The notes under the pieces: model-generated
Databases searched by the model: none
Seen by the model: only the letters and a program-made list of their open reading frames with translations
What the model was told of the DNA's origin: nothing
Assembly: GCF_000422785.1 (NCBI RefSeq)
Contig: NZ_AUGS01000002.1
Coordinates: 372,001 to 436,000, forward strand
Reading direction: 5' to 3'
DNA length: 64,000 bases
Source of the DNA: Pseudovibrio exalbescens DSM 16456
Lineage (GTDB): Bacteria; Pseudomonadota; Alphaproteobacteria; Rhizobiales; Stappiaceae
Shown: positions 29,646 to 48,495 of the stretch, one piece after another
How positions within the stretch are numbered: position 1 is the first letter of the stretch
Layout: every line of letters begins with the position of its first letter
Made by a program: the position numbers and the translations under genes

Positions 29646-29735
29646 GGAGAGTTGCCGGAGTGGTCGAACGGGGCGGTCTCGAAAACCGTTGAGCACGCAA
29701 GTGTTCCGAGGGTTCGAATCCCTCACTCTCCGCCA
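29646..29735 (+). tRNA. tRNA-Ser (anticodon CGA)
   Basis: 90-nt class II tRNA beginning GGAGAGTTGCCGGAGTGG and ending CTCTCC-G-CCA with encoded CCA. The anticodon loop is CTCGAAA (anticodon CGA, decoding UCG) within the stem GCGGT/ACCGT; a long variable arm (GAGCACGCAAGTGTTC) and T-arm GGTTCGAATCC are present. Confidence 0.96.
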
Positions 29736-30342
29736 TAATCTCGATTCCATTTTGTCAAGGTATTGTTTTTGTAATGCTCATTGGGGCACCACTTAGGGTG
29801 GCTGCTACATGGTCTTTTTCCGATTAGCCTCTGAGGCGTTGCAAGCAACCCTATCGATCGATTTTTCACACTTGCCGAAACTCATTTAGGTTGTAAGCCC
29901 AAATTTAATTAGGTCAGAAAATTGCAGGAAAGTTGTATTATTCTTTGCGAGTAAATTCCTCAGAACTTCCAGAGTTTATGTTAGGAAAGAAGGAAAGTGT
30001 GCACGCAAAAATGATTTTGAACAGTGGCTGTAGTCTACTGCTTCGAATTTCCCTAGCGGGTATGGGCTTAGGGAAACCTGCTCTTGCTTTTAGTCGTTTT
30101 AGGCCCCGCAAATAGGTAGCGGAGTATTCTTGCTTGATCTCGCTGTTGTTGGGCGAATATGGTGTTGTGTGTGTGTCAAACCGGCCGCCTTTATTGTTTG
30201 AGCCAAGATTGACAGCATGTGTTTATAGAAGTTTGCCATTCTTAATGGCTAATGTCGTTCAGAAAATTTATTCATCTATCCGCCAAAATTCCGGAACCCG
30301 ACTTCCTTACTTAGAATAGTTTTTTTCTCAGCTGGATTTCGC
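29736..30342. other. Gene-free stretch after tRNA-Ser
   Basis: About 600 bp that looks more AT-rich than the rest of the window, with no supported gene. I searched for a copy of the tRNA 3' end (an attachment-site scar) between here and 32000 and did not find one. Confidence 0.5.
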
Positions 30343-30774
30343 TCACTGGCAGTCGAAGATAAATGTTGAGGCTTTGTCGATTGGTGTCTCAAGACGGTGC
30401 TGGGAATAAAAAAGTTTCTTATTCGCGAGGTCAAATGTGTAGAGTGAGTGCACCATGGCTGCATATTTTACCAACACGCTGATGGAATGCTCCCCGACCC
30501 CTACAACGGAGACTTCTGCGCCATCTGCTCGTGAGCTCTGGTAGCCTCTAACATCTTTGTAGAGAATGTCGATCTCTTTGGTTTCGCTAACTGTAAGCGC
30601 TATCAAACCGGTTGTGTCTGACTGCCAACCTGCGTCGTCGTCGCTAAAGAATTCGCTTGAGTTGAAAAAGGAATAGCCCTTACCTACCGGGCATTCTGCC
30701 AAACTGGCTGCTTTCGTGCTCGCGAAAGGGAAGAAAAGCAATACGGCAGCGGCTAGCGAAACAGCTTTTTGCAT
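30343..30774 (-). CDS. Hypothetical secreted protein
   Basis: 143-aa protein (149 if ATG 30792 is used). It has a clear signal peptide: MQKAVSLAAAVLLFFPFASTKA, with cleavage likely before ASLAECP. The mature part has two Cys (near residue 29 and the penultimate residue), which could form a disulfide, and alternating polar/hydrophobic stretches (TGLIALTVSETKEIDILYKDVRG; HSISVLVKYAAMVHSLYTFD) suggesting a beta-rich periplasmic fold. I do not recognise the family. It is the only convincing gene between tRNA-Ser and guaD. ATG 30774 has GAG about 9 nt upstream; neither start has a strong site. Confidence 0.6.
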   Translation of the reverse strand: MQKAVSLAAAVLLFFPFASTKAASLAECPVGKGYSFFNSSEFFSDDDAGWQSDTTGLIALTVSETKEIDILYKDVRGYQSSRADGAEVSVVGVGEHSISVLVKYAAMVHSLYTFDLANKKLFYSQHRLETPIDKASTFIFDCQ

Positions 30775-30792
30775 CTTAGCTCGATCTATCAT

Positions 30793-31990
30793 TATCAGTG
30801 TGACTTGGTGACTATGTGTCTTTTCTAGCTACAAGGAGTTTCTTTAGAATCTCTGCTGGTTAGATATGTCTCTGATTAAGCGGAGCCCTAGGACTAGGTT
30901 AGTATCCCGCCCACCAACTTTCCGCCAATGTTAGGCGCCAACGGTAAGCCCAATTCTTCTTTATTGATATCTCATGTTGCTTGCTTCAGGCCGAACCATT
31001 CCGATCGGTTTTTGGGTGTTCATCGGGAGAGCCCATAGTAAGACTATAATGGTAAGTCTGTTTTGTTTTCTCCCCATTCCTGCTTTCACGCGCCTAAATT
31101 GTATCAAGCATTTCTTTGCGCACGATAGGCTGTGCACTGCTGCTTAATAGCAATTTAATTGGCGTGATTAACAGTTCATGTGATTACGCGTGAAGGCCGC
31201 GAGCACCTAGACAGTATTGCCCTTGAGGGTGTGACCAGTTCTTTAGAATGCATTCGTTCATTAGCTAGCTTGGCTCAAGTTGTGAGTCATTGCAATGTGT
31301 GGTGTAAACAATCTCGTTTGGGTCCTTCAGGTATCATTAATTGCGCATTTTAGTGAGGCTTTCTTCTGGTAGTTGGGTTTTCTCATTAACTTGCTGGATA
31401 CAAGTAGCGAGCAAGGTGGTTTGCGTCCGTCTACTTATCGTGATCTTGCAAGTGCTGTGGGTTGGGGCGTGCAGCGTTTGCCGATTCTTTCATTTTGCAC
31501 TGCTGATGATGCGCTGGACTCAGACAAATAGGCGATAAAATGCAGGAATGGTTCAGTAAGAATACGTGGTTATTGATATTGCATTCTTATGGGACAGTTT
31601 TGATTAATCACTATTTCTGATGATAGGGTACGAGGCGGTCGCTGCAGCGTAAGCCGAGACTCTGATTTTCAGTGCTCCGCCGTTGATAATTTAATAATGT
31701 TATTCAACAGGTTAGTTATGAGCTGGAATGATCGTTCTTTTTGGCGGTGGAGAGTTGGGTTTTATCCTACGTTTTGTCACTGATCAATTTCTCCGGGCGC
31801 TAATCAGCTTCTGCATCTCTAGGAGATTCACTTATTGACCGACGCGCTGATATCTTCTTATCGTTGATCTTGCCTCGGCCATGGTCTCGCATCTTGAAGC
31901 GAGCATGAGGCCGGTTCGGGGCCGTAAAACCGCTGTAAAAAAGCGAGAACGGCGCTGCCCTCCCTCAGGCGGATCACCACTCGACATAAC
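30793..31990. other. Long gene-poor region before guaD
   Basis: About 1.2 kb with no convincing gene on either strand; stops are frequent and no family-like peptide is visible. A near-direct repeat CTTATCG-T-TGATCTTGC occurs at 31434-31449 and 31857-31873. Around 31875-31915 there is a GGCC/GGCC plus CTCGC/GCGAG interrupted stem that may belong to the guaD leader. Confidence 0.5.
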
Positions 31991-32024
31991 AGCCTACCTG
32001 TAACCGTTTTGACAGACGGAGGCT
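31991..32024 (+). promoter_or_regulatory. Shine-Dalgarno-sequestering hairpin in guaD leader (possible riboswitch)
   Basis: AGCCT (31991-31995) pairs with AGGCT (32020-32024) and CCGT (32004-32007) with ACGG (32016-32019), leaving an 8-nt bulge ACCTGTAA on the 5' side and an 8-nt loop. The guaD ribosome site ACGGAGG (32016-32022) is entirely inside the 3' strand. The two-stem, one-sided-bulge form next to a purine gene recalls the compact xanthine-sensing NMT1-type riboswitch, but I cannot confirm its consensus from memory. Confidence 0.45.
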
Positions 32025-36213: not shown

Positions 36214-36250
36214 GCCATGAACGGATAAGCTGTTCATGGCTTTTCTTGTT
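36214..36250 (+). terminator. Intrinsic terminator after second MFS gene
   Basis: GCCATGAAC (36214-36222) and GTTCATGGC (36232-36240), a perfect 9-bp stem with a 9-nt loop, followed by TTTTCTTGTTTCTTG. It separates the guaD-MFS segment from the araC-type gene and contains the ATG (36236) of a longer frame of that gene, arguing against that start. Confidence 0.85.
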
Positions 36251-36343
36251 TCTTGTTTGTGCTCTTGTGTGCAGGAACATAGGCAGATCGCTTCTTGTTC
36301 TGTTAAAACGGACAGCGAGGTCGAGAGGCAAAGGGGATCAGCG

Positions 36344-37231
36344 GTGCGAACAGAACCGGCGAGCGGACCGGCAAACCTGACAGAACGGTTCGAAGCGTAT
36401 GCCGAAACGCCGCATACCATCCGTAGAGTATTTTACGCGGGCAATTTACCCGCGCCGCCGCCTTTGGCTTATCAGGTCCATTTCCCGCGCCTCGAAATGG
36501 TGTTGGATGGTCAACTGCTCATGGAAGTGGGAAACAACACCGGCGAAGATACCCAGCACCTTATGACGCGTGGTTGTGCGCTATACATTCCGGCAGAGAG
36601 CTGGAACAAACCGGTACTCACCCATCCGGTAGAAACTCTGAGCATTTTGATTGGCAAGCAAAGCTTTGGCCTCAGCATTTTGAAGTGGAATGGGGAAAAT
36701 TACGAGACCGCACTGAAGCACAACATCATGCGACGAGGACCGCGTACCGGCACATTTATCGTTCAGGCGCTGGAGGAACTGAGTTGGCATGTTCAGGATC
36801 AACAAACCGCGCGACTGCTTGTGGCCTCGCTTTTGAGCCATATCAGCGAGTTGACCCACTCACCTCCCGAAGCCCCTTCCAAGAGCAAGGCTTTGTTTGA
36901 AGCTGTCCGCGGTTATCTCGAACAGCATTATCACGAGCCGCTCACGCGGGATTCCGTTGCCAAGCACTTTTACATCTCGTCGAACTACCTTTCCCAATTG
37001 TTTGCAAAGGAGGGAAAGGTAAAATTCAATGAATACCTGAACCATATTCGTCTGGAGCGGGCAAAATATCTGCTCAAGGAGTATGATATGAAGGTGAAAG
37101 AGGTTGCTCACAGATGCGGATTTTCTGACAGCAATTACTTCTGCAGACTGTTTCGGGCACAAACTGCGCGCTCGCCATCAGAATACCGGACTCACTACCG
37201 AAGCAGGGTCAAGGCTGAGGCTACAGACTGA
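36344..37231 (+). CDS. AraC family transcriptional regulator of the PTS-glycyl radical locus
   Basis: 295-aa regulator. The N-terminal cupin-like sensing domain (about 1-170) includes YQVHFPRLEMVLDGQLLMEV and GCALYIPAESWNKP. The C-terminal AraC DNA-binding domain has two helix-turn-helix motifs: TRDSVAKHFYISSNYLSQLFAKEGKVKFNEYLNHIRLERAKYLLKE and KVKEVAHRCGFSDSNYFCRLFRAQTARSPSEYR. GTG 36344 has AAAGGGGAT upstream; the ATG at 36236 falls inside a terminator. It is convergent with frwD, overlapping by 11 bp, and is probably the substrate-responsive regulator of the gene cluster that follows; that role is inference from position. Confidence 0.85.
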   Translation: MRTEPASGPANLTERFEAYAETPHTIRRVFYAGNLPAPPPLAYQVHFPRLEMVLDGQLLMEVGNNTGEDTQHLMTRGCALYIPAESWNKPVLTHPVETLSILIGKQSFGLSILKWNGENYETALKHNIMRRGPRTGTFIVQALEELSWHVQDQQTARLLVASLLSHISELTHSPPEAPSKSKALFEAVRGYLEQHYHEPLTRDSVAKHFYISSNYLSQLFAKEGKVKFNEYLNHIRLERAKYLLKEYDMKVKEVAHRCGFSDSNYFCRLFRAQTARSPSEYRTHYRSRVKAEATD

Positions 37232-37556
37232 TCTTTGTCGCAGGTGGTGCGTGTCGAATTTTCTCCAGCGCCTCAAATACGTGAGTAGGGTCTTTCAGAA
37301 AGGCCGTTATGGTTGCTCGCACCAACCGGCAGTCCTGAAAACGCTCGCTGCCCTCGATGTTGATATCTGCAACAATCACGACGACATCTGCGTTCGCAAT
37401 CATGTCAGCCGACAAGGCGTTTTCGGAGCCAAGTGCCCCTTGAGTTTCAACAGTGATGGTGTGGCCGGCCTTCTTGGCCTTTTTCTCCAGAAGCTCTGCA
37501 GCCATGTATGTATGAGCTACACCGCTTAAACATGCCGTAACACCAACAATTTTCAT
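37221..37556 (-). CDS. frwD: PTS fructose-like EIIB component, FrwD type
   Basis: 111-aa phosphocarrier. The phosphorylatable Cys is residue 9 in MKIVGVTACLSGVAHTYMAAE; most fructose EIIB proteins read CPTG here. The body (VETQGALGSENALSADMIANADVVVIVADI...ERFQDCRLV) and the long C-terminal tail match E. coli FrwD, the second EIIB-like protein of the frw locus. It is the last gene of the minus-strand operon, separated from the aldolase gene by a hairpin. FrwD may be an accessory or regulatory EIIB; no transport role has been shown that I know of. Confidence 0.85.
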   Translation of the reverse strand: MKIVGVTACLSGVAHTYMAAELLEKKAKKAGHTITVETQGALGSENALSADMIANADVVVIVADINIEGSERFQDCRLVRATITAFLKDPTHVFEALEKIRHAPPATKISL

Positions 37557-37575
37557 AGTTGCGCCCACAAACCAT

Positions 37576-37609
37576 AGAAACCCAACGGGTATCATCCCGC
37601 TGGGTTTCT
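37576..37609 (-). terminator. Intercistronic hairpin between fsa and frwD
   Basis: AGAAACCCAACGGG (37576-37589) and CCCGCTGGGTTTCT (37596-37609), 14 bp with one mismatch, loop TATCAT. The minus-strand tail after the stem is ATGGTTTG, not a T-run, so it is more likely a partial terminator or stabiliser lowering frwD expression. Confidence 0.5.
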
Positions 37610-37645
37610 GTCATATGCGCTAAATCAATTGGACGCAACTATCGC

Positions 37646-38323
37646 TTAAATGACATCAAGAACTGTGGTTTCCGCGCCGTACACGCTTTCCCAGTCGCTG
37701 GTGAAACCGGCAACACTCGAGTCCGTAAGGGGGTGTATCAGGAGCTGGTCGAACACATCCGGAGCGATCGTGACCGATTGGGCACCGGCTTTCGCGATCT
37801 CATGGACCTGTTGAACGTTTTTGAACGAGGCGGCGAGCACTTTAGCTTCTAACTGATAAACGTCGATCAGATGAGCAATTTCGGCAGCGACCTGAGTGCC
37901 ATCGGCGCAAATGTTATCCAGACGGTTCACATAGGGTGCCAGAAACTCCGCCCCGGCCACTGCGGCCATCAGCGCTTGCTGTGGCGTAAGAATGGCTGTT
38001 GCAGTGATACGGAAGCCAAGTGCCTTTAGTTCCTTAATGGCTTTGATGCCTTGCTGGGTGACGGGCACCTTGATGATGATTTCTTCATCGATCTCGCGCA
38101 TGGCCTGCGCTTCCCTAACCATCACCTCGGCTGTTTTGCCCATGACCTGAGCGTGGAGCATCCGATCTTTGCCGATGACGGCCCGAATATCGCGGATGAT
38201 ATCCGCGAAACTCCGCTTTTCCTTGGCGATGATGGAAGGGTTCGTGGTTACGCCAGCAAGCGGATACAGGTCAACGGCCTTTTTGATCGCTTCGATGTCT
38301 GCGGTGTCGAGCATATAAATCAT
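37646..38323 (-). CDS. fsa: Fructose-6-phosphate aldolase-like (FSA/TalC) protein
   Basis: 225-aa small transaldolase-family aldolase. The Schiff-base Lys is residue 85 in EEIIIKVPVT, the same position as in E. coli FsaA. Other landmarks are LYPLAGVTTNPSI, APYVNRLDN and KVLAASFKNVQQVHEI. Family members split or join C3 units through dihydroxyacetone or hydroxyacetone. Next to a PflD-type lyase the likely reaction is cleavage of 1-deoxyfructose 6-phosphate to glyceraldehyde 3-phosphate and hydroxyacetone. By eye it is closer to Gram-positive FSA proteins (TATAILTPQQAL) than to E. coli FsaA/FsaB. Nineteen bp separate it from the upstream reductase gene. Confidence 0.9.
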   Translation of the reverse strand: MIYMLDTADIEAIKKAVDLYPLAGVTTNPSIIAKEKRSFADIIRDIRAVIGKDRMLHAQVMGKTAEVMVREAQAMREIDEEIIIKVPVTQQGIKAIKELKALGFRITATAILTPQQALMAAVAGAEFLAPYVNRLDNICADGTQVAAEIAHLIDVYQLEAKVLAASFKNVQQVHEIAKAGAQSVTIAPDVFDQLLIHPLTDSSVAGFTSDWESVYGAETTVLDVI

Positions 38324-38342
38324 GGTAGCCTCATGTGGTCCT

Positions 38343-39197
38343 TTAGTAGCCGAATTCTCTTAGGCATTTTGTCAGGGCAGCCTTGCTCTCGGTAAAGCGG
38401 ATGCCTTGTTCTGCAAGTTTGGAGGTGTCTAGTCGCACATCTCGCGTTTTGGGGGCTTCAGCAGGTTCTAAAAGCACGTCAAGGCGTTCACCTTGCCCGA
38501 GCTCCTTGAGAATATGCTCCGCGATTTCATAACGGCTGGCTGGGTTATGAGCACCCGTATGATACGTCCCATAGGGAATTTCAAAAATCTGCGGGAATTG
38601 ATCAATCAACTCATGCACATAGGTTAAGCCACGGAACTCGTTGCGCCGTTCCCTCATCTTGGCGCCGCCAATCAGCGCTTGCATCGTGTTCCAGAGCACA
38701 TTCGGGTTGATGCTGGTCTGGCGTTCAGGCAAGCCAAACAACCAAGTAAAGCGCAGAATCCACATTTCTTCGAGGATCTGTTTCAGCCGGCCCTCTGCTT
38801 CCAGCTTGTTCAGCCCATATACAGTGTCGGGTACAGCTTCATGGTCTTCGCAGTACGGCCCAGCTTCCTCGTTGCCATTAAACACCTGCTCCGTGCTGAT
38901 AAAGACGAGTTTCGATCCGACTGCGCGGCACGCCCGGCCCACGTTTACCGCGCCGGATACATTGACCTTGTGCGCCACATCAGGATGTTTGTTGCAAAAG
39001 TCTGTAACCGCAATGGCGGCGGCGTGAATGACATAGTCCGGACGGAGTTCATCAAACAGGGCGTCAACCATCTCGGCGTTCGTGATATCCAGTTGCTCAA
39101 CATCGGTTGCGGTGATGGCGAACCTGTCTTGATATGTCTTGATGAACCGGGTTCCGAAAAAGCCGTTTGCGCCGGTAATGAGGATTTTCTTCTTCAT
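38343..39197 (-). CDS. RmlD-like extended SDR reductase
   Basis: 284-aa NAD(P)-dependent sugar-nucleotide-type reductase. Rossmann motif KILITGANGFFG (about 5-15), VIHAAAIAVTDFCNKHPDVAHKVNV, STEQVFNG, and the catalytic Y127-x3-K131 (YGLNK) are intact; the C-terminal half follows the RmlD pattern (YGTYHTGAHNPASRYEIAEHIL). ATG 39197 starts two bases after the activase stop. RmlD proteins reduce dTDP-4-keto-rhamnose, but no other rhamnose gene is here. In E. coli the equivalent position holds GldA, which reduces hydroxyacetone; a catabolic carbonyl-reductase role is inference. Confidence 0.82.
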   Translation of the reverse strand: MKKKILITGANGFFGTRFIKTYQDRFAITATDVEQLDITNAEMVDALFDELRPDYVIHAAAIAVTDFCNKHPDVAHKVNVSGAVNVGRACRAVGSKLVFISTEQVFNGNEEAGPYCEDHEAVPDTVYGLNKLEAEGRLKQILEEMWILRFTWLFGLPERQTSINPNVLWNTMQALIGGAKMRERRNEFRGLTYVHELIDQFPQIFEIPYGTYHTGAHNPASRYEIAEHILKELGQGERLDVLLEPAEAPKTRDVRLDTSKLAEQGIRFTESKAALTKCLREFGY

Positions 39198-39199
39198 GG

Positions 39200-40102
39200 T
39201 CACCCACCAATGTTTACTGTGTAACCGCGTGCCTCGACGCGGCGTCTTATGGCTTCGATTTCGGTGTCGGTTGGCACCGGCACATCCTTGAACTCATAGT
39301 CCATCCCGAAGATTTCATACTTGTTGGCGCCGAATTGATGGAACGGCAGCAGATGAACCTCCTGCAGGTCAAAAGCACTCAGGAAGTCGAGAATGGCGTC
39401 GATATTCTCGAAGCTCATGGTGTAGCCAGGAATCAATGGAATCCGCGGGACAACATGTGTGCCTTGGTCGACCAGCTGTCGGAAATTATCCAGACAGCGT
39501 TGTAGGTTGATGCCGACAACATCCTTCGCGACTTTCGAATCCATGATCTTGAAATCATAAAGAACCTCGTCACAGAACTGCCCAAGCTCCAACAAGAGCG
39601 TTGTGTTCCCGTGCCCTGTCGTTTCTATAGCCGTGTTGTAACCCAGCCGTTTCAGTCGCTTCAAAAGCTCCAAAGCAAAGGGCGCCTGCGTGAGCACCTC
39701 ACCTCCGGATAGCGTTACCCCGCCACCCGAAGAGCGGTAGAACACCTCGTCCCTCTCGATTTCGGCCATCAGCTCATCAAGTGTCATGTCCGTGCCGACC
39801 AACTCGAGGGCACCTGTGGGACACTCGTTCACGTCATTTGAGCAAACTGCACAGTGACGGCACTTGGCCTCTCGGCGAATGATCTGTTGCTTTGAGGACC
39901 GGGACTCGGGATTGGAGCACCAAGGGCACCGCAAGGGACATCCCTTGAAGAACACAACAGTACGGATGCCCTCGCCATCATTGAGCGAATAGCGCTGGAT
40001 ATTGAATACCCGCCCGGTAGAAGGGGGTGGCGTTCCCTCAACCGCAGCATCGTGACATCTGTTTGGATTACAGCTCATGGGCCGTTCTTCTGATGATGTC
40101 AT
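39200..40102 (-). CDS. pflC: Glycyl radical enzyme activating protein (PflC-type radical SAM)
   Basis: 300-aa radical SAM enzyme that installs the glycyl radical on the adjacent PflD-like protein. The cluster motif is C55-x3-C59-x2-C62 (FKGCPLRCPWCSNPES). An inserted ferredoxin-like motif CRHCAVCSNDVNECPTGAL (C81, C84, C87, C94) offers one extra [4Fe-4S] site. Also visible are GGGVTLSGGEVLTQAPFALELL and HLLPFHQFGANKYEIFGMDY. ATG 40102 has AAGGA 8 nt upstream and overlaps the end of pflD; ATG 40078 is an alternative. Requires anaerobic conditions and SAM. Translational coupling to pflD fits the enzyme-activase pairing. Confidence 0.93.
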   Translation of the reverse strand: MTSSEERPMSCNPNRCHDAAVEGTPPPSTGRVFNIQRYSLNDGEGIRTVVFFKGCPLRCPWCSNPESRSSKQQIIRREAKCRHCAVCSNDVNECPTGALELVGTDMTLDELMAEIERDEVFYRSSGGGVTLSGGEVLTQAPFALELLKRLKRLGYNTAIETTGHGNTTLLLELGQFCDEVLYDFKIMDSKVAKDVVGINLQRCLDNFRQLVDQGTHVVPRIPLIPGYTMSFENIDAILDFLSAFDLQEVHLLPFHQFGANKYEIFGMDYEFKDVPVPTDTEIEAIRRRVEARGYTVNIGG

Positions 40103-42368
40103 CTTGGATTTCCTTGGATAGCTCAACGAAAAAGGCGCTATATCCGGCAACCCGAACCACGAGACCAGCAAAGTCCTCTGGACGCTTCTGAGCGTCACGC
40201 AAGGTTTCAGCGTTCAGCACGTTGAACTGAATGTGCTGTAGTTTCAGTTTCATGAATGCGCGTAAAAAGTCGCCAAGCTTGGTTAGCCCCTGTTCGCCTT
40301 CAAGGGTGGATGGAGTAAATTTCACGTTCAAAAGGCTGCCGTTGGACAGCAAATAGTTGTCCAGCTTACTCACGGACTTGAGAACAGCAGTGGGGCCTTT
40401 GTGGTCTTTTCCCAGCATGGGCGAGAGTCCGCCGTCCGCCAACTGTTCGCCTTTCAAACGACCATCCGGTGTTGCGCCAACGACTGCACCTAGGGGGACG
40501 TGAGCCGAAACCGTGTAGGAGCCGGGGGTGAAAACTCCGCCGCGCGGGTTTGTGTATTGCTCCACTTCCTTGCAGTAGAACCGCAGAATATCTGCACCAT
40601 AGGTATCGACGCCGTCGATGTCGTTGCCGTACTTGTCGTAGCGATTCATCAAGCGGGCGCGGATCTGCTCGCCTCTTTCGCCATCAAAGTTGCTCTCCAG
40701 AACGTCGATGAATTCTTTGAAAGTCGCGCGCTTTTCTTCGAACACGAACTGCTTAAGTGCGGCTAGGGAGTCCGACAGATTGGCAATGCCGATCCCCTGA
40801 ACCCCGGAGAAGTTGTAGCGTGCACCGCCATAGGTAATGTCCTTGCCGTTTTCGATACAGTCGCTGATGAAGGACGATAGCAGGGGCACGGGTGCCCAGT
40901 CGCGATGGCCGATGTCACAGATATTGGACCCTTCGGCCATCAACTTGACGTAGTGGCGAATGTCCTGCCGGATTTCCTCGAGCAGTTGCTCGAAGGTTAT
41001 CTCCGCGTTGTCCTTGTTGCGGTCCAGCACCAACTCCATCACCTTCAGGAGATTGAACATGGCGATGTCATGCAAGCCGTAGGTCTTGCCTGGAATTGAA
41101 AGCTCCACGCAGCCTACAACGGAGTAGTCGCGAGCGTCTTCCAGCGAAACACCGCGGTTGAGGAAAGCAGGCACAACCACTTCGTCATTGAAGATCTGCG
41201 GAATGCCGGTACCCATTCGGATTGTTTCAGTTGTTTTGCGCAGGAACTCACGGTCGATCAACTCATTGACGCGTACGCCCAGGTTGGGCTGAGGCAGCCG
41301 GATGCTCTGATATGCGTCAAGGCACAACAGCGAAAGCTCATTGACGGCGCTGCGGCCAGTCTCTGTCAAACCGCCCAACAAAATGGTGTAGCCTGTCGGG
41401 AAACCTGCGAAGAATTTTGCGCTACCGGTTGAGCGCAGCAGAACCACATCATTGGTCTTGATCCAGAGGCTTTCCAGATACTCTTTCAGGAGCGCCGGGT
41501 CTTCTCCGTTGGCAAGAGACGCTCGATAAAACGGCAGCATATACTGATCGAACCGGCCCAGTGAGAGGGAGCTGGCATTGGATTCGTATTGCAGGATCAC
41601 GTTCATGAACCAGAACAACTGCACCGCTTCGTAAAAGTCCTCGGGCTTTTCGGTGACGATTTTCGCGGAAATCGATGCGATTTTCAGCAATTCCTCGGCT
41701 CGGGCTTTATCGTCGCAATCGTCTGCCATTTTGCGCGCCAATGCTTCATAGCGGCGAATATGTCGAATGGAGGCTTCCAGAAGAATGACAACAGCCTTGT
41801 AAAAGTCATTCTCGCTGTTTTTCGCGCTTAGGACTTTCAACTCATCCAGAAGGGTTCCGAGACCATTGCCAAGAAGGCGGTCGAAGTCGATGATAATGTG
41901 CCCCTGACCTTTGTCGGTCTGGTTCACGCTGAAAATCTTGTGGCGGGTTGCTTCTTTAATTTCCTCGGGAAACTGGGCATTGATGAAGTCTTTCATGGAG
42001 CGCTTGGACCAGTATGGTAGCAGCTGCTCACGATAGATTTTCTTGTCATCCTCGCTAATGAAGAACTTGTCCTGGGGGCGGGTTTCGAAAGTGTCCAGTT
42101 CCTTGTCCAGCCAGTAGGGATCCATTTCCGGGGACATGATGCCTGCGCGTGGCTTGACTGTTCTGTTGCCAGCAATCAGTTCATCAGGGCGGATCGAAAT
42201 CTCGACATTGTCCAGAATGTGAGCGGTCGCCAACGCCCGCCGAACCAGTGTGTGTTCGCCTTCGGTCTGCTTGTGGCTTTCGGTATACAGAAGAGCGCGT
42301 TCGAGAGAAATTTCGCGTTTGGCTTCAAACAAGGCGGCCTTGAGGCGTTCAATTCTTGGAGTGCTCAT
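40068..42368 (-). CDS. pflD: Glycyl radical enzyme, PflD type (probable 1,5-anhydromannitol-6-phosphate lyase)
   Basis: 766-aa glycyl radical enzyme. The thiyl-radical Cys is C420 in YSVVGCVELS, followed by E422, the CxE arrangement of eliminating and dehydrating members rather than the CC pair of pyruvate formate-lyase. The glycyl radical loop is VVRVAGYSAFF with G742. Length and many long blocks (IAGNRTVKPRAGIMSPEMD; ILQYESNASSLSLGRFDQYM; GSNICDIGHRDWAPVPLL) match E. coli PflD as I remember it, including the C-terminus EIQDDIIRRTAHEL. E. coli PflD is reported to open 1,5-anhydromannitol 6-phosphate to 1-deoxyfructose 6-phosphate. Substrate here is inferred from that and the PTS/FSA neighbours. 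Confidence 0.92.
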   Translation of the reverse strand: MSTPRIERLKAALFEAKREISLERALLYTESHKQTEGEHTLVRRALATAHILDNVEISIRPDELIAGNRTVKPRAGIMSPEMDPYWLDKELDTFETRPQDKFFISEDDKKIYREQLLPYWSKRSMKDFINAQFPEEIKEATRHKIFSVNQTDKGQGHIIIDFDRLLGNGLGTLLDELKVLSAKNSENDFYKAVVILLEASIRHIRRYEALARKMADDCDDKARAEELLKIASISAKIVTEKPEDFYEAVQLFWFMNVILQYESNASSLSLGRFDQYMLPFYRASLANGEDPALLKEYLESLWIKTNDVVLLRSTGSAKFFAGFPTGYTILLGGLTETGRSAVNELSLLCLDAYQSIRLPQPNLGVRVNELIDREFLRKTTETIRMGTGIPQIFNDEVVVPAFLNRGVSLEDARDYSVVGCVELSIPGKTYGLHDIAMFNLLKVMELVLDRNKDNAEITFEQLLEEIRQDIRHYVKLMAEGSNICDIGHRDWAPVPLLSSFISDCIENGKDITYGGARYNFSGVQGIGIANLSDSLAALKQFVFEEKRATFKEFIDVLESNFDGERGEQIRARLMNRYDKYGNDIDGVDTYGADILRFYCKEVEQYTNPRGGVFTPGSYTVSAHVPLGAVVGATPDGRLKGEQLADGGLSPMLGKDHKGPTAVLKSVSKLDNYLLSNGSLLNVKFTPSTLEGEQGLTKLGDFLRAFMKLKLQHIQFNVLNAETLRDAQKRPEDFAGLVVRVAGYSAFFVELSKEIQDDIIRRTAHEL

Positions 42369-42459
42369 CTAAAGCTCCCGGATGGCTTCGTAATCTGGTG
42401 TAGGCAAAGGAGAGGTGGGGGAGTGGGGAGCCGTGGCTCCCCACGAGGCCGTCTTGGGA

Positions 42460-42780
42460 TTAGGCAGCCTTGTTAAGATGGGCTTCAATCTTGTCCATTA
42501 CGGCAGCCGCGCGCTTGACAGCATCGCTGACACCGATGCGCACGACCACTTTGCCTTCAAAACGTTCTTGACCCTTGATGTCGATATCCTTTGTCAGGAT
42601 GACGACGTCTGCTGCTGCAATGTCTTCTGCGGTCAGTTCGTTCTCAATGCCGATGGAGCCCTGAGTTTCGACCTTGCATGCCCAGCCCTTGGCCTTTGCG
42701 GCCTGTTCGACTGCTTCAGCAGCCATGTAGGTGTGAGCGACGCCGGAGGGACATGCGGTTACTGCGACTACGTTTGTCAT
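42460..42780 (-). CDS. frwB: PTS fructose-like EIIB component, FrwB type
   Basis: 106-aa cytoplasmic phosphotransfer subunit with phosphorylatable C10 in VAVTACPSGVAHTYMAAEAVEQAA. VETQGSIGIENELTAEDIAAADVVILTKDIDI and the C-terminus VSDAVKRAAAVMDKIEAHL match E. coli FrwB. It passes phosphate from the EIIA domain of the fused protein (44352-46859) to the incoming sugar alcohol bound by EIIC. It lies between the EIIC gene (49-bp gap) and pflD (91-bp gap). Confidence 0.92.
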   Translation of the reverse strand: MTNVVAVTACPSGVAHTYMAAEAVEQAAKAKGWACKVETQGSIGIENELTAEDIAAADVVILTKDIDIKGQERFEGKVVVRIGVSDAVKRAAAVMDKIEAHLNKAA

Positions 42781-42828
42781 GATCTTCGCCTTTTTTGTTT
42801 GATGTGCTTTGTGTGGGAGCCGTGCAGA

Positions 42829-43899
42829 TCAACCGAACTCGATATCGAGGTCGCCGTCGTCTGCTGCTTCCTTGGTCGGTGACTCCTTGCGCATGGACTT
42901 GAGAGCGTTCACCAGTACGGCAGTGACAACGGCACCAACAGTCAGGGCGACAATGAACCCAATGCGGCCATCAACCACTGGCAGCACGATCAGGCCACCC
43001 CAGGCTGCAAAGCACTCAACACCGAGAACCGCAGCAGTTACTGCACCACAAGCGGTACCAATCATGATGGAAGGCAGAACCCGCAGAGGGTCAGCAGCAG
43101 CAAACGGAATTGCACCTTCGGTGATGCCTACAGTGCCCATAAGGAAGGAAGCGCGACCGGCTTCTTGCTCAGAAGGTTCATAGAGCTTCTTGTTGATGAA
43201 GGTAGCCAGGCCCATGCCGATGGACGGAACCGCAACGGACACCGCGCTGATGCCGGCCACGTTGTAGATGCCTTCACCCACACACATGATGACAAAGGCG
43301 TATGCTACCTTGTTGACTGGCCCGCCCATATCAAAGGCGATCATCAAACCCATCACGATGGCAAGAACAACGATGCTGGAATCCTGCATACCGCGCAGGA
43401 ACTCGGTAAGAGACGCCGTGGCCATGCCGATTGGTTCGCCAATACCCCATACCATGACACCGGCCGTAATGAACGTACCGACGATTGGAATTACGAAGAT
43501 CGGCATGATTGAGCGGGCAAACGCGGGCACTTTGATCTTCTTGAGATAGTGCACGATGATACCAGCCAGAAGGCCGGCGAAAATCGCGCCGAAGAAGCCA
43601 GTATTGTACATGTTGGCGCCAATGAACGCGCCGATAGCTGCCGGTGCCAGTGCGGACCGGTCCGCAATGGAGTAACCAATATAGGCTGCCAGGATTGGCA
43701 CCATGAGCTGAAAACCGGCAACGCCGATGAAGAACAGATCATGAAGCCAGGTGCCTTCCGCCGGAACAGCGCCCTCACCATAGAGCATTACCGAGGCTGC
43801 GAGCAGAATACCACCAGCCACAACAAACGGGATCATGTAGGACACGCCTGTCATGAGATGTTGTCGGGTATTCTTGAGTATTACTAGTAGATCATTCAT
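42829..43899 (-). CDS. frwC: PTS fructose-like EIIC permease, FrwC type
   Basis: 356-aa membrane permease of the fructose-mannitol PTS superfamily, with about nine hydrophobic segments (GVSYMIPFVVAGGILLAASVML; GFFGAIFAGLLAGIIVHYL; LAIVMGLMIAFDMGGPVNKVAY). Conserved substrate-site blocks are FDMGGPVNKVAYAF and GTVGITEGAIPFAAADP. ATG 43899 follows a GGGGAGGA ribosome site; the longer frame to 43950 is rejected. First gene of the minus-strand operon, facing the ptsA-like gene across a 452-bp control region. Substrate inferred as a 1,5-anhydrohexitol. Confidence 0.92.
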   Translation of the reverse strand: MNDLLVILKNTRQHLMTGVSYMIPFVVAGGILLAASVMLYGEGAVPAEGTWLHDLFFIGVAGFQLMVPILAAYIGYSIADRSALAPAAIGAFIGANMYNTGFFGAIFAGLLAGIIVHYLKKIKVPAFARSIMPIFVIPIVGTFITAGVMVWGIGEPIGMATASLTEFLRGMQDSSIVVLAIVMGLMIAFDMGGPVNKVAYAFVIMCVGEGIYNVAGISAVSVAVPSIGMGLATFINKKLYEPSEQEAGRASFLMGTVGITEGAIPFAAADPLRVLPSIMIGTACGAVTAAVLGVECFAAWGGLIVLPVVDGRIGFIVALTVGAVVTAVLVNALKSMRKESPTKEAADDGDLDIEFG

Positions 43900-44351
43900 C
43901 TGATTATCCTCCCCAGAGAATATGAGCGAATAGCGATCGGTCTTTTCCAAGCGGTCCCGACCTCTGTGAGGCCCTTGGAAATCAAGTTGAGTATGTTGGA
44001 TTCTGTGCTACTCAAGTAGAGGACAAAAACACTATTTACTGGATAAATGTTAGATATATAAAGGATGGAGAAATACGATAAATAACGTAGGTAGTAACAA
44101 TTACAAGAAATATATTTTATTAACTAATTGATATAATTTACTAAATAATGACGCCGTTATGGTGATGCAGATTTCATCTCCGTTGCGTGCTCTGAAGTAT
44201 GTAGTAATTCTAATGTATCTAAGATCTCTGTGGTATTCTAACAAATGTCCAGCAAAACGAAGTTTTGTCCAATAGAGACACCGGTGGTTCCCGGCTACAG
44301 TTGGATCAACAGCTTGACCCAGAGCTATCTTTTGATTCTGAGGGACACAAA
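43900..44351. other. AT-rich divergent control region between frwC and ptsA-like gene
   Basis: No gene in 452 bp. The middle (about 44030-44160) is strongly AT-rich, as expected for divergent promoters. An inverted repeat TTGAGTA (43987-43993) with TACTCAA (44009-44015), 15 nt apart, overlaps the short palindrome CTACT-CA-AGTAG (44008-44019) and is a candidate regulator site. I found no FNR box of the TTGAT-N4-ATCAA type. Confidence 0.5.
43987..44019. promoter_or_regulatory. Inverted repeats upstream of frwC (candidate operator)
   Basis: TTGAGTA (43987-43993) is repeated inverted as TACTCAA (44009-44015); the right arm is itself part of CTACTCAAGTAG (44008-44019). It lies about 90-120 bp upstream of the frwC ATG, a plausible binding site for the locus AraC-type protein or another regulator. 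Confidence 0.35.
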
Positions 44352-46859
44352 ATGAAAACATTCTCCTTTACTTGTGAATTGCCGAATGGTGTCCATGCGA
44401 GACCGGCTAATCACGTAGAGACGCTGTGTAACAACTATTCTTCTGAAATAAAATGGACCAATGAGCGCACCGGTATTACTGGCAACGCCAAGAGCGTTCT
44501 ATCCTTGATTGGTACGGATACCCTTTTTGAAGACACTTGCACCATCTCCGTTGAGGGCTCGGACGAGAATGAAGCGTTTGAGAAGGTCAAGCAGTTCATA
44601 GAGACTGAGTTTGAACACTGTGATGCGCCTTTGGAAACCGCGAATGAAGACGATGGTGAGTTCGTGCCCTTGCCACGCAACTTCGCCAATCTGAAGGCGG
44701 AGCACATCAGGGGGCGCGCTGTCAGTGGCGGTTTTGGACGTGGCAAACTCGTGCGCGTCGGGGCTGTTGATTTTGATAGCTTGACGGATCTGCCGCCCGT
44801 TGCCGCTATAGAGGAAGAGAAGAACCAGCTGGAAGCGGGATTTGAAACTCTTTCCCGGTCGTTCAAGGTGCAGCTTGCAAGCGCCGCGGCCACTGAGGCG
44901 GATGTGGTAAAGGCGCATTTGGCCATCGTGAACGATATCGAATTCAAGGCAACGCTTGATGCAAAGATGGCAGAGGGCAAGGGCGCTGCAGAAGCTGTTA
45001 TTGCAACTGCAAAGCATTATACCGCGCAGCTGAGAAACTCCGCCAGTGCCTATATGCGTGAGCGTGAGCTCGACATTCGCGACGTATGTTTTCAGCTTCT
45101 CCAGGCGATTTATGGAGAGGACAAGTTCTCCAACTCGCTGGCTCTAACCGGTCCGACCATCTGTCTGGCAGATGACCTGACACCGAGTCAGTTTCTGGAG
45201 TTGGATAAGAGCCTTCTCAAGGGATTGATACTGACACGCGGTGGAAGCACTTCACACACGGTCATTCTGGCGCGGTCTTTCGCCATCTCGACCCTTGTTG
45301 GCGTGGATGAGACCAAACTGGGCGATCGCTTGGGCTATGAAGTCATGGTGGATGGTGATCTTGGTCTGGTGGTCACAGAGATCACAAAGCCGGTATCCCG
45401 TTACTACGAGCAGGAACAACGGGTTCAGGACACTGTGCGCGAACGACAGGCGGCTTTTCGTGATCAAAAGGGAATGACAGCTGATGGCAAACCAGTGGAA
45501 CTTGCCGCAAACATTGCACACTCCATAGAAGCCGGTCCTGCGTTCAGGAACGGTGCCGAAGCCATCGGCCTGTTCCGCACTGAAATGCTGTACATGGACC
45601 GCACCTGTGAGCCGGATGAGGATGAGCTCTACAACATCTATTGTCAGGCCATTGAGGATGCTGATGGAAAATCCATCATCATCCGCACCATCGACATCGG
45701 CGGTGATAAGCCGGTCGACTATCTTCAGATTCCGGCAGAAAACAATCCGTTCCTCGGATATCGTGCCGTACGCATCTACGAAGAGTTCATTGACCTGTTC
45801 AAGGCGCAATTGCGTTCGATCTTGCGTGCTTCGGCACATGGGTCGCTGAAGATCATGATCCCCATGATTTCCTCCCTTGAAGAGATCCTGTGGGTGAAGG
45901 ATATCTTGGCGGAAATTCGTCAGGATTTGCGCAAAGAGCATATCCCGTTCGACGAGAAAATCCCGCTGGGCATCATGGTTGAAGTTCCGTCTGTTGCCTT
46001 CATTATCGACCAGTGCTGTGAGGAGGTCGACTTCTTCAGTATCGGAAGCAACGATCTGACCCAGTATCTGATGGCCGTTGACCGGGATAATGCCAAGGTA
46101 ACTAAGCACTACAACAGCCTGAATCCGGCGTTTTTGCGCACGCTTGATCACATTGTCACTTCGGTCCACCGCCATGGCAAGTGGGTCGGCCTGTGTGGTG
46201 AGCTGGGTGCGAAGGGATCTGTCCTGCCATTGCTCGTTGGCCTCGGTCTTGATGAAATCAGCATGAGCGCTCCCAGCATTCCGGCAACCAAAGAGCGTGT
46301 CTCCAAGCTTGATAGTCGCCAATGCCGTATCTTGCTGAACAAGGCCATGGACTGCCGAACCTCTTTGCAGGTGGAACACCTTCTTGCTCAGTTCCGCATG
46401 GAACAGTCTGATGCGCCTCTCGTCTCCAGAGATTGCATCATGCTGGATGCCGACCTGCGCTCCAAGGAAGAGGTTATCAAGACATTGTCGGATAACCTCT
46501 TTCTTGCGGGGCGTTGCCGCTACCCCAACAGCCTTGCGGATGACCTTTGGGCTCGCGAAGATGTGTTCTCTACTGGCCTTGGTTTCGGGTTCGCTATACC
46601 GCATACAAAATCCGAGCATATCGAACAGTCCGCGATCAGCGTTTCTCGTTTGGCAAAGCCAATCCAGTGGGGTGATGAAGAGGCGCAGTTCGTCATCATG
46701 TTGACCCTGAACAAGCATGCGGCAGGGGATCAGCACATGAAGATTTTCTCCAAGCTGGCGCGCCGCATAATGCAAGAGGAGTTCCGCAGCAAGCTCATGA
46801 ATGCTGCATCTGTCGCAGAGGTTGAAAACACGCTGAAGAGCGAGTTGGAACTCGCCTGA
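44352..46859 (+). CDS. ptsA: Fused PTS phosphocarrier: HPr - enzyme I - EIIA (PtsA/FrwA type)
   Basis: 835-aa multiphosphoryl transfer protein combining all soluble general and first specific PTS steps. The HPr domain (1-90) has its active H15 in CELPNGVHARPANHVETL. Enzyme I (about 115-660) has active H302 in TRGGSTSHTVILARS, GLFRTEMLYMDR and the PEP-binding region GSNDLTQYLMAVDRDNA with catalytic Cys in GLCGELGAKG. The EIIA-Fru domain (about 690-830) has H751 in FAIPHTKSEH. Order and length match E. coli PtsA (833 aa). ATG 44352 follows GAGGGA; a frame from 44265 adds non-family residues. It makes this PTS independent of any housekeeping HPr/EI. Confidence 0.95.
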   Translation: MKTFSFTCELPNGVHARPANHVETLCNNYSSEIKWTNERTGITGNAKSVLSLIGTDTLFEDTCTISVEGSDENEAFEKVKQFIETEFEHCDAPLETANEDDGEFVPLPRNFANLKAEHIRGRAVSGGFGRGKLVRVGAVDFDSLTDLPPVAAIEEEKNQLEAGFETLSRSFKVQLASAAATEADVVKAHLAIVNDIEFKATLDAKMAEGKGAAEAVIATAKHYTAQLRNSASAYMRERELDIRDVCFQLLQAIYGEDKFSNSLALTGPTICLADDLTPSQFLELDKSLLKGLILTRGGSTSHTVILARSFAISTLVGVDETKLGDRLGYEVMVDGDLGLVVTEITKPVSRYYEQEQRVQDTVRERQAAFRDQKGMTADGKPVELAANIAHSIEAGPAFRNGAEAIGLFRTEMLYMDRTCEPDEDELYNIYCQAIEDADGKSIIIRTIDIGGDKPVDYLQIPAENNPFLGYRAVRIYEEFIDLFKAQLRSILRASAHGSLKIMIPMISSLEEILWVKDILAEIRQDLRKEHIPFDEKIPLGIMVEVPSVAFIIDQCCEEVDFFSIGSNDLTQYLMAVDRDNAKVTKHYNSLNPAFLRTLDHIVTSVHRHGKWVGLCGELGAKGSVLPLLVGLGLDEISMSAPSIPATKERVSKLDSRQCRILLNKAMDCRTSLQVEHLLAQFRMEQSDAPLVSRDCIMLDADLRSKEEVIKTLSDNLFLAGRCRYPNSLADDLWAREDVFSTGLGFGFAIPHTKSEHIEQSAISVSRLAKPIQWGDEEAQFVIMLTLNKHAAGDQHMKIFSKLARRIMQEEFRSKLMNAASVAEVENTLKSELELA

Positions 46860-46972
46860 CCGCGATAAGGTGATGGGGGCTCGGTCTCCTCCCACGGGGT
46901 CCTCGTTTTCTTGGCAGTCCGGCGTTTGGCCGGGCTGCTCTTTTTCAAATCCGGGAGCAGGAGGATGGACGC

Positions 46973-48004
46973 ATGACACCAATCAAAACGGCGCTGATCG
47001 GATTTGGCATCTCCGGACAATCTTTTCAGGCTCCGATTTTGCAAGCGCTGGGTGAGTATGAGTTGACCAGCGTCGTCTCAAGCAATACTGAAAAAGTTCA
47101 TGCTCAGTTGCCGTCCGCAGTCGTTTATCCATCCATTGATGAGCTGCTTGCAAAAGGCGATGAGGAGTTGGTGGTCATTGCGACCCCAAATGAACTACAT
47201 GGCCCGTTCGCCGAAAAAGCCTTGCGTGCTGGCAAGCATGTGGTGGTGGAAAAGCCCTTTACGATCGACAGTGCAGAAGGCAAGCAGATTGCGGCCTTGG
47301 CGGAAGAGCAGGGCAAAAAGATCAGTGTCTATCACAGTCGCCGATTTGACGGTGATTTCCTCACTATCCAGAAGCTGATCTCAGAAGGGCACCTTGGCGA
47401 GGTACATACCTTGTTCTCCAGCTATAACCGCTATCGTCCTGTGGTGAAGGATCGGTGGCGGGAGCAGAATATTCCCGGCGCCGGAATTTTGTATGATCTC
47501 GGGTCTCATCTTATTGATCAAGCGTTGGCCTTTTTCGGGCCCCCTAAAAGCGTGACAGCAACCTTGCGAAACCAGCGTCCCGGCGCGCAGGCTGTGGACC
47601 ACTTTCATATCTGCCTTGGTTACGACCAAAGGGACGTCATTCTGCATGGCAACAATCTCAGCACGACTGAAGGCCCGCGCTTTCAGGTCTATGGCTCGGA
47701 AGGTGCTTTCATCAAATATGTAATGGATAAACAAGAAGACCTGCTTCGCGAGTTGAAGGGGCCCGGCTGCGAGGGGTGGGGCGAAGACCCTGAGAGCGCA
47801 TGGGGCGTCTACACTGATGCCAGCGGGAAAGCCGTTGCTGTGCCAACCGAACGCGGTTGCTATGAGCGGTTTTACCTTGAAATGGCTTCAGCTATCCGTG
47901 GTGGGGGCGAGGTGCCCGTGATGCCGCAAGAAGCAATCACCACAATCAAGATCGTTGAAGCGGCTTATGCCAGTAGCGCCGCGCACAAAACCGTTTTCCT
48001 TTAG
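46973..48004 (+). CDS. Gfo/Idh/MocA family oxidoreductase, YdgJ-like
   Basis: 343-aa NAD(P)-dependent dehydrogenase. The Rossmann motif is KTALIGFGISGQSFQAPIL; the family EKPF motif is HVVVEKPFTIDSAEGKQ with the catalytic Lys; the C-terminal domain has RDRW-like VVKDRWREQNIPGAGILYDLGSHLIDQAL and NQRPGAQAVDHFHICLGY, strongly resembling E. coli YdgJ. It follows the ptsA-like gene by 113 bp on the same strand. Rhizobial 1,5-anhydrofructose reductase, which forms 1,5-anhydromannitol, belongs to the same superfamily, so a link to anhydrohexitol redox chemistry is attractive but unproven; YdgJ itself has inositol-type activities reported. Confidence 0.85.
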   Translation: MTPIKTALIGFGISGQSFQAPILQALGEYELTSVVSSNTEKVHAQLPSAVVYPSIDELLAKGDEELVVIATPNELHGPFAEKALRAGKHVVVEKPFTIDSAEGKQIAALAEEQGKKISVYHSRRFDGDFLTIQKLISEGHLGEVHTLFSSYNRYRPVVKDRWREQNIPGAGILYDLGSHLIDQALAFFGPPKSVTATLRNQRPGAQAVDHFHICLGYDQRDVILHGNNLSTTEGPRFQVYGSEGAFIKYVMDKQEDLLRELKGPGCEGWGEDPESAWGVYTDASGKAVAVPTERGCYERFYLEMASAIRGGGEVPVMPQEAITTIKIVEAAYASSAAHKTVFL

Positions 48005-48012
48005 GGGGGGAT

Positions 48013-48495
48013 ATGTCAGAGCTGTTGGAGAAGTTGCTCGAGCAGGAGAGCCGATTGCAGTTCGCTTGGTTTTCTCACCAACGGGCCTGGGACCTTGGAG
48101 TTGCGCTGAAAACGGCAGCAGAAGCTGAAGGCGCAAGTGTTGCCATTGATATTACACTGAATGGTCTGACGTTGTTTGCCTTTGTCCTGCCCGGTGCGCG
48201 CGGTGACAATCTTGAGTGGGTCAGGCGCAAGAAAAACTCGGTAACCCGCTATCATCACAGCACTTGGTATCTGGCCAACGCCTACAAGGCCAAGGGCAAG
48301 AACATGTATGAGGGGTCCGGCGTGGATCCGAAAGACTATGCCTGCCACGGCGGTGGTTTTCCTTTAACTGTCCGGGGCGTGGGTGTTGTTGGCTCGATTA
48401 CGGTTTCCGGTTTGCCGCAGGAAGACGATCACCGTCTCATCGTGGAGGTGCTTGAGAGCTTCCTCGATGAGGGCGAGAAGGCATGCGCTGACTAG
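48013..48495 (+). CDS. UPF0303 / haem-degrading-domain (HbpS/GlcG-like) protein
   Basis: 160-aa cytoplasmic protein with the UPF0303 pattern: FSHQRAWDLGVALKTAAEAEGASVAIDITLNG, then ARGDNLEWVRRKKNSVTRYHHSTWYLANAYKAKGK and HGGGFPLTVRGVGVVGSITVSGLPQEDDHRLIVEVL. The GGG-FP...G.iGVSG block is the HbpS/GlcG-like fold. Its molecular function is unknown; members are often found beside sugar oxidoreductases or dehydratases. Eight bp separate it from the Gfo/Idh gene, so they are one unit. Confidence 0.85.
   Translation: MSELLEKLLEQESRLQFAWFSHQRAWDLGVALKTAAEAEGASVAIDITLNGLTLFAFVLPGARGDNLEWVRRKKNSVTRYHHSTWYLANAYKAKGKNMYEGSGVDPKDYACHGGGFPLTVRGVGVVGSITVSGLPQEDDHRLIVEVLESFLDEGEKACAD

Follow-up and report, generated by a model that had tools for sequence, protein, structure and literature searches.

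A Vibrionaceae-type locus predicted to serve 1,5-anhydromannitol use in the marine alphaproteobacterium Pseudovibrio exalbescens

Known anhydrohexitol systems and the locus of P. exalbescens

The fermentation of 1,5-anhydromannitol (AM) is already known from Escherichia coli, in which the step catalysed by the phosphotransferase system (PTS) and the lyase reaction on AM 6-phosphate (AM6P) have been published, PflD being the 1,5-anhydromannitol-6-phosphate lyase (PMC12441222, citing Ma et al.). The genes form the locus frwC-frwB-pflD-pflC-frwD / ptsA-fsaB-gldA. A second glycyl radical enzyme (GRE) of E. coli, YbiW, is the 1,5-anhydroglucitol 6-phosphate lyase. The 2-keto precursor of AM, 1,5-anhydrofructose (AF), is made by alpha-1,4-glucan lyase in red algae and fungi, and the free sugar is reduced to AM by a rhizobium (PMC12441222). 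In Sinorhizobium morelense the route leads from this type of reductase to a hydroxylation at C1, which yields mannose, and the hydroxylase is described as P450-like and unidentified (PMC12441222). The present analysis concerns a stretch of 64,000 nucleotides from Pseudovibrio exalbescens DSM 16456 (contig NZ_AUGS01000002.1, positions 372,001 to 436,000; hereafter the window), in which positions 36236-48495 carry a locus with the parts, except gldA, of the E. coli AM system. Judged by its genes, this locus is predicted, with a probability of about 0.72, to serve the use of AM and probably also that of AF.

The region comprises eleven intact open reading frames (ORFs). All components listed in the initial annotation (EIIC, EIIB, a PflD-type GRE, its activase, an FSA aldolase, a FrwD-type EIIB, a fused HPr-EI-EIIA and an AraC regulator) were found among them at or near the positions given there, except that the AraC ORF opens at 36236 and not at 36344. 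The EIIC, EIIB, GRE, activase, RmlD-like short-chain dehydrogenase/reductase (SDR), FSA and second EIIB genes run outward from one control region on the minus strand, and the genes of HPr-EI-EIIA, a Gfo/Idh oxidoreductase and an HbpS-like protein run outward from the same region on the plus strand. The AraC-type regulator gene faces the FrwD end of the operon, and its orthologue occupies this place also in locus L006 and in most Vibrionaceae loci. The features are as follows.

36236..37231, plus strand: AraC-family regulator (HTH_18); Pfam PF12833, 77.2 bits; exact start uncertain
37221..37595, minus strand: FrwD-type PTS EIIB; above the TIGR00829 cut-off; 50% identical to E. coli FrwD
37646..38323, minus strand: FSA-type aldolase, predicted to split 1-deoxyfructose 6-phosphate; NF009299, 233.8 bits (cut-off 214)
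38343..39203, minus strand: RmlD-like extended SDR, proposed to reduce C2 of the sugar phosphate that the PTS delivers; PF04321, 164.1 bits
39200..40198, minus strand: PflC-type glycyl radical activase (radical SAM); NF007483, 427 bits (cut-off 326); 53% identical to PflC
40068..42368, minus strand: PflD-type GRE, predicted 1,5-anhydromannitol-6-phosphate lyase; NF007437, 1479.5 bits; C420, E422, G742
42460..42780, minus strand: FrwB-type PTS EIIB; NF007783, 184.2 bits (cut-off 135); 75% identical to FrwB
42829..43950, minus strand: FrwC-type PTS EIIC; NF007787, 575.3 bits (cut-off 426) from residue 18 on; 66% identical to FrwC
43900..44348, no strand: divergent control region between EIIC and PtsA; 0.45 kb, G+C 0.39
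44265..46859, plus strand: PtsA-type fused HPr-EI-EIIA; PTS_I_fam, 474.5 bits (cut-off 341.7); 64% identical to E. coli PtsA
46973..48004, plus strand: Gfo/Idh/MocA oxidoreductase of YvaA/YdgJ type; NF008607, 333 bits (cut-off 330)
48013..48495, plus strand: HbpS-like protein (UPF0303 in the initial annotation); PF03928, 102.9 bits; NF002696, 185.3 bits (cut-off 146)

The locus shares with that of E. coli the PTS parts, PflD, PflC, FrwD, PtsA and FSA, as well as the divergent arrangement and the AraC-type regulator (YijO in E. coli) at the FrwD end; a dedicated PTS and FSA are linked to PflD, as in the E. coli type of AM locus. It differs in that gldA is missing, FSA has moved next to FrwD and is from another branch of its family, and RmlD-like, Gfo/Idh and HbpS-like genes have been added. 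The same order is found on plasmid pTHAF190c_b of Vibrio sp. THAF190c, with RmlD between the activase and FSA and with Gfo and HbpS beside PtsA. The extra redox genes had been taken in the initial annotation as the mark of a variant pathway, and this view gains support, since they belong to a Vibrionaceae-type layout. The absence of gldA which it reported holds for the locus; elsewhere in the genome, two gldA pieces lie at the ends of contigs C15 and C27, probably parts of a single gene that a gap in the assembly interrupts. The THAF190c plasmid additionally carries PfkB, an SIS-domain protein, PhyH and ManA, whereas a tblastn search with PhyH, ManA and PfkB found none of the three in the window at E 1e-5. 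The operon is common, gene by gene, to a sister Pseudovibrio (P. exalbescens M63) and to Vibrionaceae and is therefore far beyond chance. The new part in relation to E. coli is this reductase-bearing, Vibrionaceae-type layout, together with the organism and the probable transfer considered below.

The substrate call depends on the identity of the GRE. This protein lies above the cut-off of the PflD family (NF007437, PRK09983; 1479.5 vs 1109 bits), shows 75% identity with E. coli PflD and 39% with YbiW, and has PflD as its best solved relative (PDB 8yjo, 1300 bits; YbiW 478 bits). The alignment used here contained, besides the window protein, 81 sequences, namely PflD of E. coli K-12 and the PflDs of 80 genome loci (13 marine and 67 others); these loci are the 80 highest-ranking among 187 relatives retrieved with exact peptide patterns, in which distant PflDs are under-sampled. 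All 370 columns invariant in the 81 proteins are kept in the window GRE, whereas YbiW, which shares the GRE superfamily, the C-x-E motif and the glycine radical site, differs at 188 of them. This comparison with PflD and YbiW, suggested as a check in the initial annotation, is a comparison of sequence columns, and it falls on the side of PflD. The active-site residues C420 and E422 and the glycine radical site G742 are in place as claimed. At the sequence level, the GRE is a PflD orthologue; since it groups with PflD and not with YbiW, AM6P is its predicted substrate, and the broader '1,5-anhydrohexitol' proposed earlier is narrowed to anhydromannitol. A YbiW-like enzyme was rejected because of the 39% identity, and a pyruvate formate-lyase because NF007437 is the best family.

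The remaining proteins are consistent with this assignment to a varying degree. The FSA misses two other FSA models (TIGR00875, 231.5 vs 245.95 bits; NF009296, 236.8 vs 306 bits), is 43% identical to FsaA and 40% to FsaB, and is by sequence a distinct branch. Its residues D6, T26, N28, K85, A129, R134 and S166 are invariant in six aligned sequences, including FsaA and FsaB; we take K85, located as claimed, to be the Schiff-base lysine and D6, N28, A129, R134 and S166 to be active-site residues. The FrwD-type EIIB is under the cut-off of NF007747 (135 vs 153 bits) and above that of the general fructose-EIIB model TIGR00829 (101.3 vs 76.85). The domain order along PtsA (PF00381, PF05524, PF00391, PF02896, PF00359) bears out the postulated HPr-EI-EIIA fusion. 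The RmlD-like SDR belongs to the fold family PF04321, stays under the cut-off for dTDP-4-dehydrorhamnose reductase (TIGR01214, 148.2 vs 224.05 bits), and GxxGxxG and YxxxK are retained in 9/9 aligned RmlD-like proteins. The likely start of the activase is near 40102, by analogy with E. coli overlapping the end of the GRE gene, and those of EIIC and PtsA are likely to be about 43899 and 44349, respectively. The genome contains six EI-type and five EIIC matches, including those of the window, and the idea that the locus encodes the sole sugar PTS of the organism was therefore rejected.

In the proposed pathway, PtsA, the two EIIBs and EIIC would import the sugar and phosphorylate it at C6, and the RmlD-like reductase would convert AF 6-phosphate (AF6P) to AM6P at C2, perhaps helped by Gfo/Idh in some strains. 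Without oxygen, the activase would place a glycyl radical on G742 of PflD, and PflD, through C420 and E422, would open the ring of AM6P to give 1-deoxyfructose 6-phosphate, which FSA (K85) would split into glyceraldehyde 3-phosphate and hydroxyacetone. The hydroxyacetone may be reduced by a GldA encoded elsewhere, whose product is 1,2-propanediol, or exported from the cell. The AraC regulator presumably controls the locus. Control by FNR or CRP has no support in the sequence: with up to two mismatches allowed, 43801-44400 contains neither an FNR-like nor a full CRP-like site, the shortened CRP pattern with two mismatches has four matches in the control region and 301 across the window, which is chance level, and FNR-like two-mismatch matches (two inside the AraC ORF, 32 across the window) are likewise at chance level. 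Orthology and catalytic residues are established from sequence for the PTS, PflD, activase and FSA, and the earlier proposal of PTS import, PflD-type cleavage and FSA cleavage is supported by this orthology and by the published function of PflD.

PhyH and ManA genes in related loci

Twenty Vibrionaceae loci were compared. They are those of 18 of the 19 Vibrionaceae genomes with PflD, together with L007 and the locus on the THAF190c plasmid; the nineteenth genome (L015/G409), cut by contig ends, was left out. PflD is broken in one of the twenty, L147. Absence from a locus refers here to the fetched DNA, which extends no more than about 10 kb to either side. A gene for a PhyH-type Fe/2-oxoglutarate dioxygenase lies in the PflD cluster of 13 of the 20 loci (L007, L008, L009, L011, L012, L016, L052, L148, L150, L174, L175, L176 and L177). 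It is also present in 12/67 other PflD loci, all 12 from Enterobacterales, and in the GRE-less Vibrionaceae locus L146. In five PflD loci (L012, L150, L174, L175 and L176) and in L146, PhyH is followed directly by ManA (mannose-6-phosphate isomerase). The pair was located beside the AM PTS locus at these positions:

L146:11896-13900, PhyH-ManA pair
L150:14001-16017, PhyH-ManA pair
L174:2299-4437, PhyH-ManA pair
L175:15302-17451, PhyH-ManA pair
L176:15073-17224, PhyH-ManA pair

Two His, one Asp and two Arg of PhyH are invariant in all 30 aligned rows, seven distant ones included, and the two His and the Asp presumably correspond to the residues that bind iron in such enzymes. Among the 67 non-marine loci, which include at least two (L074 and L078) truncated by contig ends, PhyH and FSA are mutually exclusive: 12 have PhyH without FSA, 51 FSA without PhyH and four neither (Fisher 3.0e-10, a value that ignores shared ancestry). 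The 12 PhyH loci fall in one 15-row clade, and their FSA count covers locus DNA only.

The layout of these loci may reflect a sugar system with two regimes, a reading to which we give, from the gene content, close to an even chance. The PTS and the RmlD-like protein would make AM6P, which would be processed by PflD and FSA without oxygen and by PhyH and ManA in its presence. In the aerobic branch, PhyH would hydroxylate C1 of AM6P, giving mannose 6-phosphate, and ManA would pass this product to glycolysis. The logic resembles that of the Sinorhizobium route, proposed here at the phosphate level, and PhyH would be an aerobic counterpart of the kind described in a review as unidentified (PMC12441222). 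No paper joining phytanoyl-CoA dioxygenase with anhydromannitol was found in the PubMed Central subset, and neither was the term 'anhydroglycolysis'. Under the two-regime reading, the window strain would possess the anaerobic branch only, P. exalbescens M63 both branches, and one Vibrionaceae genome the oxygen branch only. The genome of the window has no PhyH match at E up to 1e-20, and M63 has the sole close PhyH (77%) among 397 genomes of the order.

It is only somewhat below an even chance, however, that PhyH and ManA are bystanders, ManA serving mannose imported by the same PTS and PhyH acting on another substrate. The PTS may import mannose as well, ManA occurs without PhyH in L013, L014 and L173 (a more distant ManA, 41%, in the last), and 7/20 Vibrionaceae PflD loci lack PhyH. 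Moreover, the PhyH gene of M63 lies on another contig than the PflD locus, with no related neighbours, and the confinement of the Enterobacterales PhyH loci to one clade points the same way. Against such independence stand the position of PhyH within the PflD cluster in Vibrionaceae and in other loci and the placement of ManA directly after PhyH in the six loci named above, one of them without a GRE.

More remote candidates were set aside. Eight distant PhyH matches (32-38% identity) in 6/397 genomes besides M63 led nowhere: a Gfo/Idh-type gene stands a few kb away in three of these loci, and a sugar-binding-protein gene is near in the one followed further, but such surroundings are too unspecific. 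E. coli YbiU (Pfam PF07350, 'Gig2-like'), encoded next but one to ybiW, found no support as an aerobic partner of YbiW, and a search of the ecoli_genomes collection with Klebsiella PhyH DNA, at the sensitivity of blastn, found no counterpart. Five Kluyvera loci (L026, L037, L038, L043 and L045) carry PflD, activase, PhyH and AraC with no linked PTS or FSA, and L026 has an AIRS-domain protein and a sigma-54 activator upstream. Several Vibrionaceae PflD loci contain a HAD sugar phosphatase gene near the PRK11587 type (L008:4113-4775 and L013:17627-18301; 262 and 254 bits, under the cut-off of 282). The E. coli sugar phosphatase gene ybiV likewise adjoins ybiW, and by analogy such a phosphatase could possibly relieve a build-up of anhydrohexitol phosphate when air kills the lyase.

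The reductase genes and the alternatives for the pathway

RmlD stands between the activase and FSA in 13/13 marine loci (in one of them the contig stops after the start of RmlD) and in none of the 67 loci of Enterobacterales, Pasteurellaceae and Orbaceae. The HbpS-like gene is present in 12 of the 13, the thirteenth being cut by a contig end. Of the 296 Vibrionaceae genomes searched, 19 carry the RmlD-like gene, 19 PflD and 18 both (Fisher 1.3e-26, again ignoring shared ancestry), and a GRE sequence adjoins RmlD in 18/19 RmlD loci. In the single genome with PflD only, RmlD extends past a contig end. The single genome with RmlD only, G686 (locus L146), retains PtsA, EIIC, EIIB, RmlD, FrwD, AraC and HbpS; GRE, activase and FSA are absent from this locus, and no PflD match was found genome-wide at E up to 1e-200. 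RmlD is thus kept without the GRE, activase and FSA and therefore, as far as gene content can tell, probably acts on the PTS product. That its reaction is the step from AF6P to AM6P is a more tentative proposal, which we hold somewhat more doubtful than probable; if it takes place, the cell could use anhydrofructose.

Gfo is an optional member of the layout, being present in 9/20 Vibrionaceae PflD loci. In a whole-genome search of 13 genomes, seven were positive for Gfo at E up to 1e-50 with one copy each, and in the six of these seven with the whole locus available this copy is that of the locus. GldA, on a separate branch and 54% identical to E. coli GldA, is linked in L013, L014 and L052 and adjoins Gfo in G409.

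Several points weigh against the use of AM and AF as proposed. The locus encodes none of the known hydroxyacetone reductases, and GldA is represented in this genome by the two contig-end pieces only. Neither RmlD nor Gfo is an orthologue of the known AF reductase: the Sinorhizobium enzyme has no orthologue in the locus, Gfo is nearer to YvaA (PDB 3gdo, 312.6 bits) than to AF reductase (2glx, 59.5 bits), and 2glx is not among the 40 PDB sequences matched by RmlD. Furthermore, Gfo is absent from about half of the loci, L146 could be a decaying remnant, and the position of Pseudovibrio inside the Vibrionaceae clade is not resolved by the PflD tree described below.

An alternative, which we consider unlikely, is that the RmlD-like protein, Gfo/Idh or both replace GldA and reduce hydroxyacetone to 1,2-propanediol, with no step upstream of AM6P. 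It would agree with the lack of gldA in the locus, with the absence of GldA at E up to 1e-50 from the RmlD-bearing genomes of P. exalbescens M63, V. variabilis and Photobacterium lipolyticum, and with Photobacterium alginatilyticum (L052), where gldA takes the position held by Gfo in relatives. However, in L146 RmlD is kept where hydroxyacetone would not form, RmlD, Gfo and GldA co-occur in L013 and L014, Gfo adjoins GldA in G409 (L102), and RmlD is present in L052 despite the linked GldA. Since RmlD neither vanishes together with FSA nor drops out where GldA is linked, its role as a hydroxyacetone reductase is disfavoured. It is very improbable that the lyase is PflD-like by ancestry alone and acts on 1,5-anhydroglucitol 6-phosphate or another polyol phosphate: a few residue changes can shift the substrate range of a GRE and the substrate call is sequence-based, but the window protein keeps every PflD-invariant position, about half of which differ in the anhydroglucitol enzyme, among them S266, where YbiW and glycerol dehydratase have a His that in the latter presumably touches the substrate.

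Some neighbouring arrangements were also noted. In Photobacterium lipolyticum, a YbiW/YbiY/FSA-like set stands directly behind the PflD locus (L073:17459-20940), which brings both anhydrohexitol enzymes together. The broken PflD of L147 (5692-7990) is split into two frames, and the remaining locus seems whole. Relatives of RmlD on other plasmids led nowhere; they occur in Persicobacter, without related genes nearby, and in Enterococcus raffinosus (36%), where a YbiW-like GRE lies at a distance of about 6 kb.

Origin of the locus and its meaning

The genome of the window (4.16 Mb) belongs to the genus Pseudovibrio, in which PflD was found in 2/16 genomes, the window's own and that of P. exalbescens M63 (90% identical). 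In 385 sampled Alphaproteobacteria genomes, PflD above the family cut-off occurs once, namely in the window's genome. Both Pseudovibrio rows of the PflD tree fall in a 14-row clade with 12 Vibrionaceae, with a support of 100 in the Shimodaira-Hasegawa-like approximate likelihood ratio test (SH-aLRT), and EIIC, EIIB, PflD, activase, FSA and PtsA, the genes compared with both groups, are nearer to Vibrionaceae than to E. coli. Because PflD is rare in the genus and groups with Vibrionaceae, the simplest reading of these sequences is that the locus was probably acquired horizontally, from Vibrionaceae or from a shared source. An SDR gene neighbouring the locus in the window is also present in M63 (76%), at the HbpS end of the locus but separated from it by other genes, and therefore the two Pseudovibrio species probably inherited a single insertion. 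A tRNA-Ser(CGA) gene followed by a low-GC stretch (about 0.46; 29646-32000) lies a few kb from the locus and is a possible insertion site.

Anhydrohexitols arise, little noticed, when starch and glycogen are broken down, and the toxicity of 1,5-anhydroglucitol 6-phosphate plays a part in the neutropenia seen in two inherited diseases. The presented results suggest that the anaerobic AM route has reached a marine alphaproteobacterium, whose RmlD-like protein is a candidate anhydrofructose-phosphate reductase. Its relatives supply in PhyH an easily assayed candidate for an aerobic route from anhydromannitol, though not yet for one from anhydroglucitol. This is the best lead of the analysis, although it lies outside the window; if true, PhyH would be the aerobic partner of PflD, an enzyme killed by oxygen.

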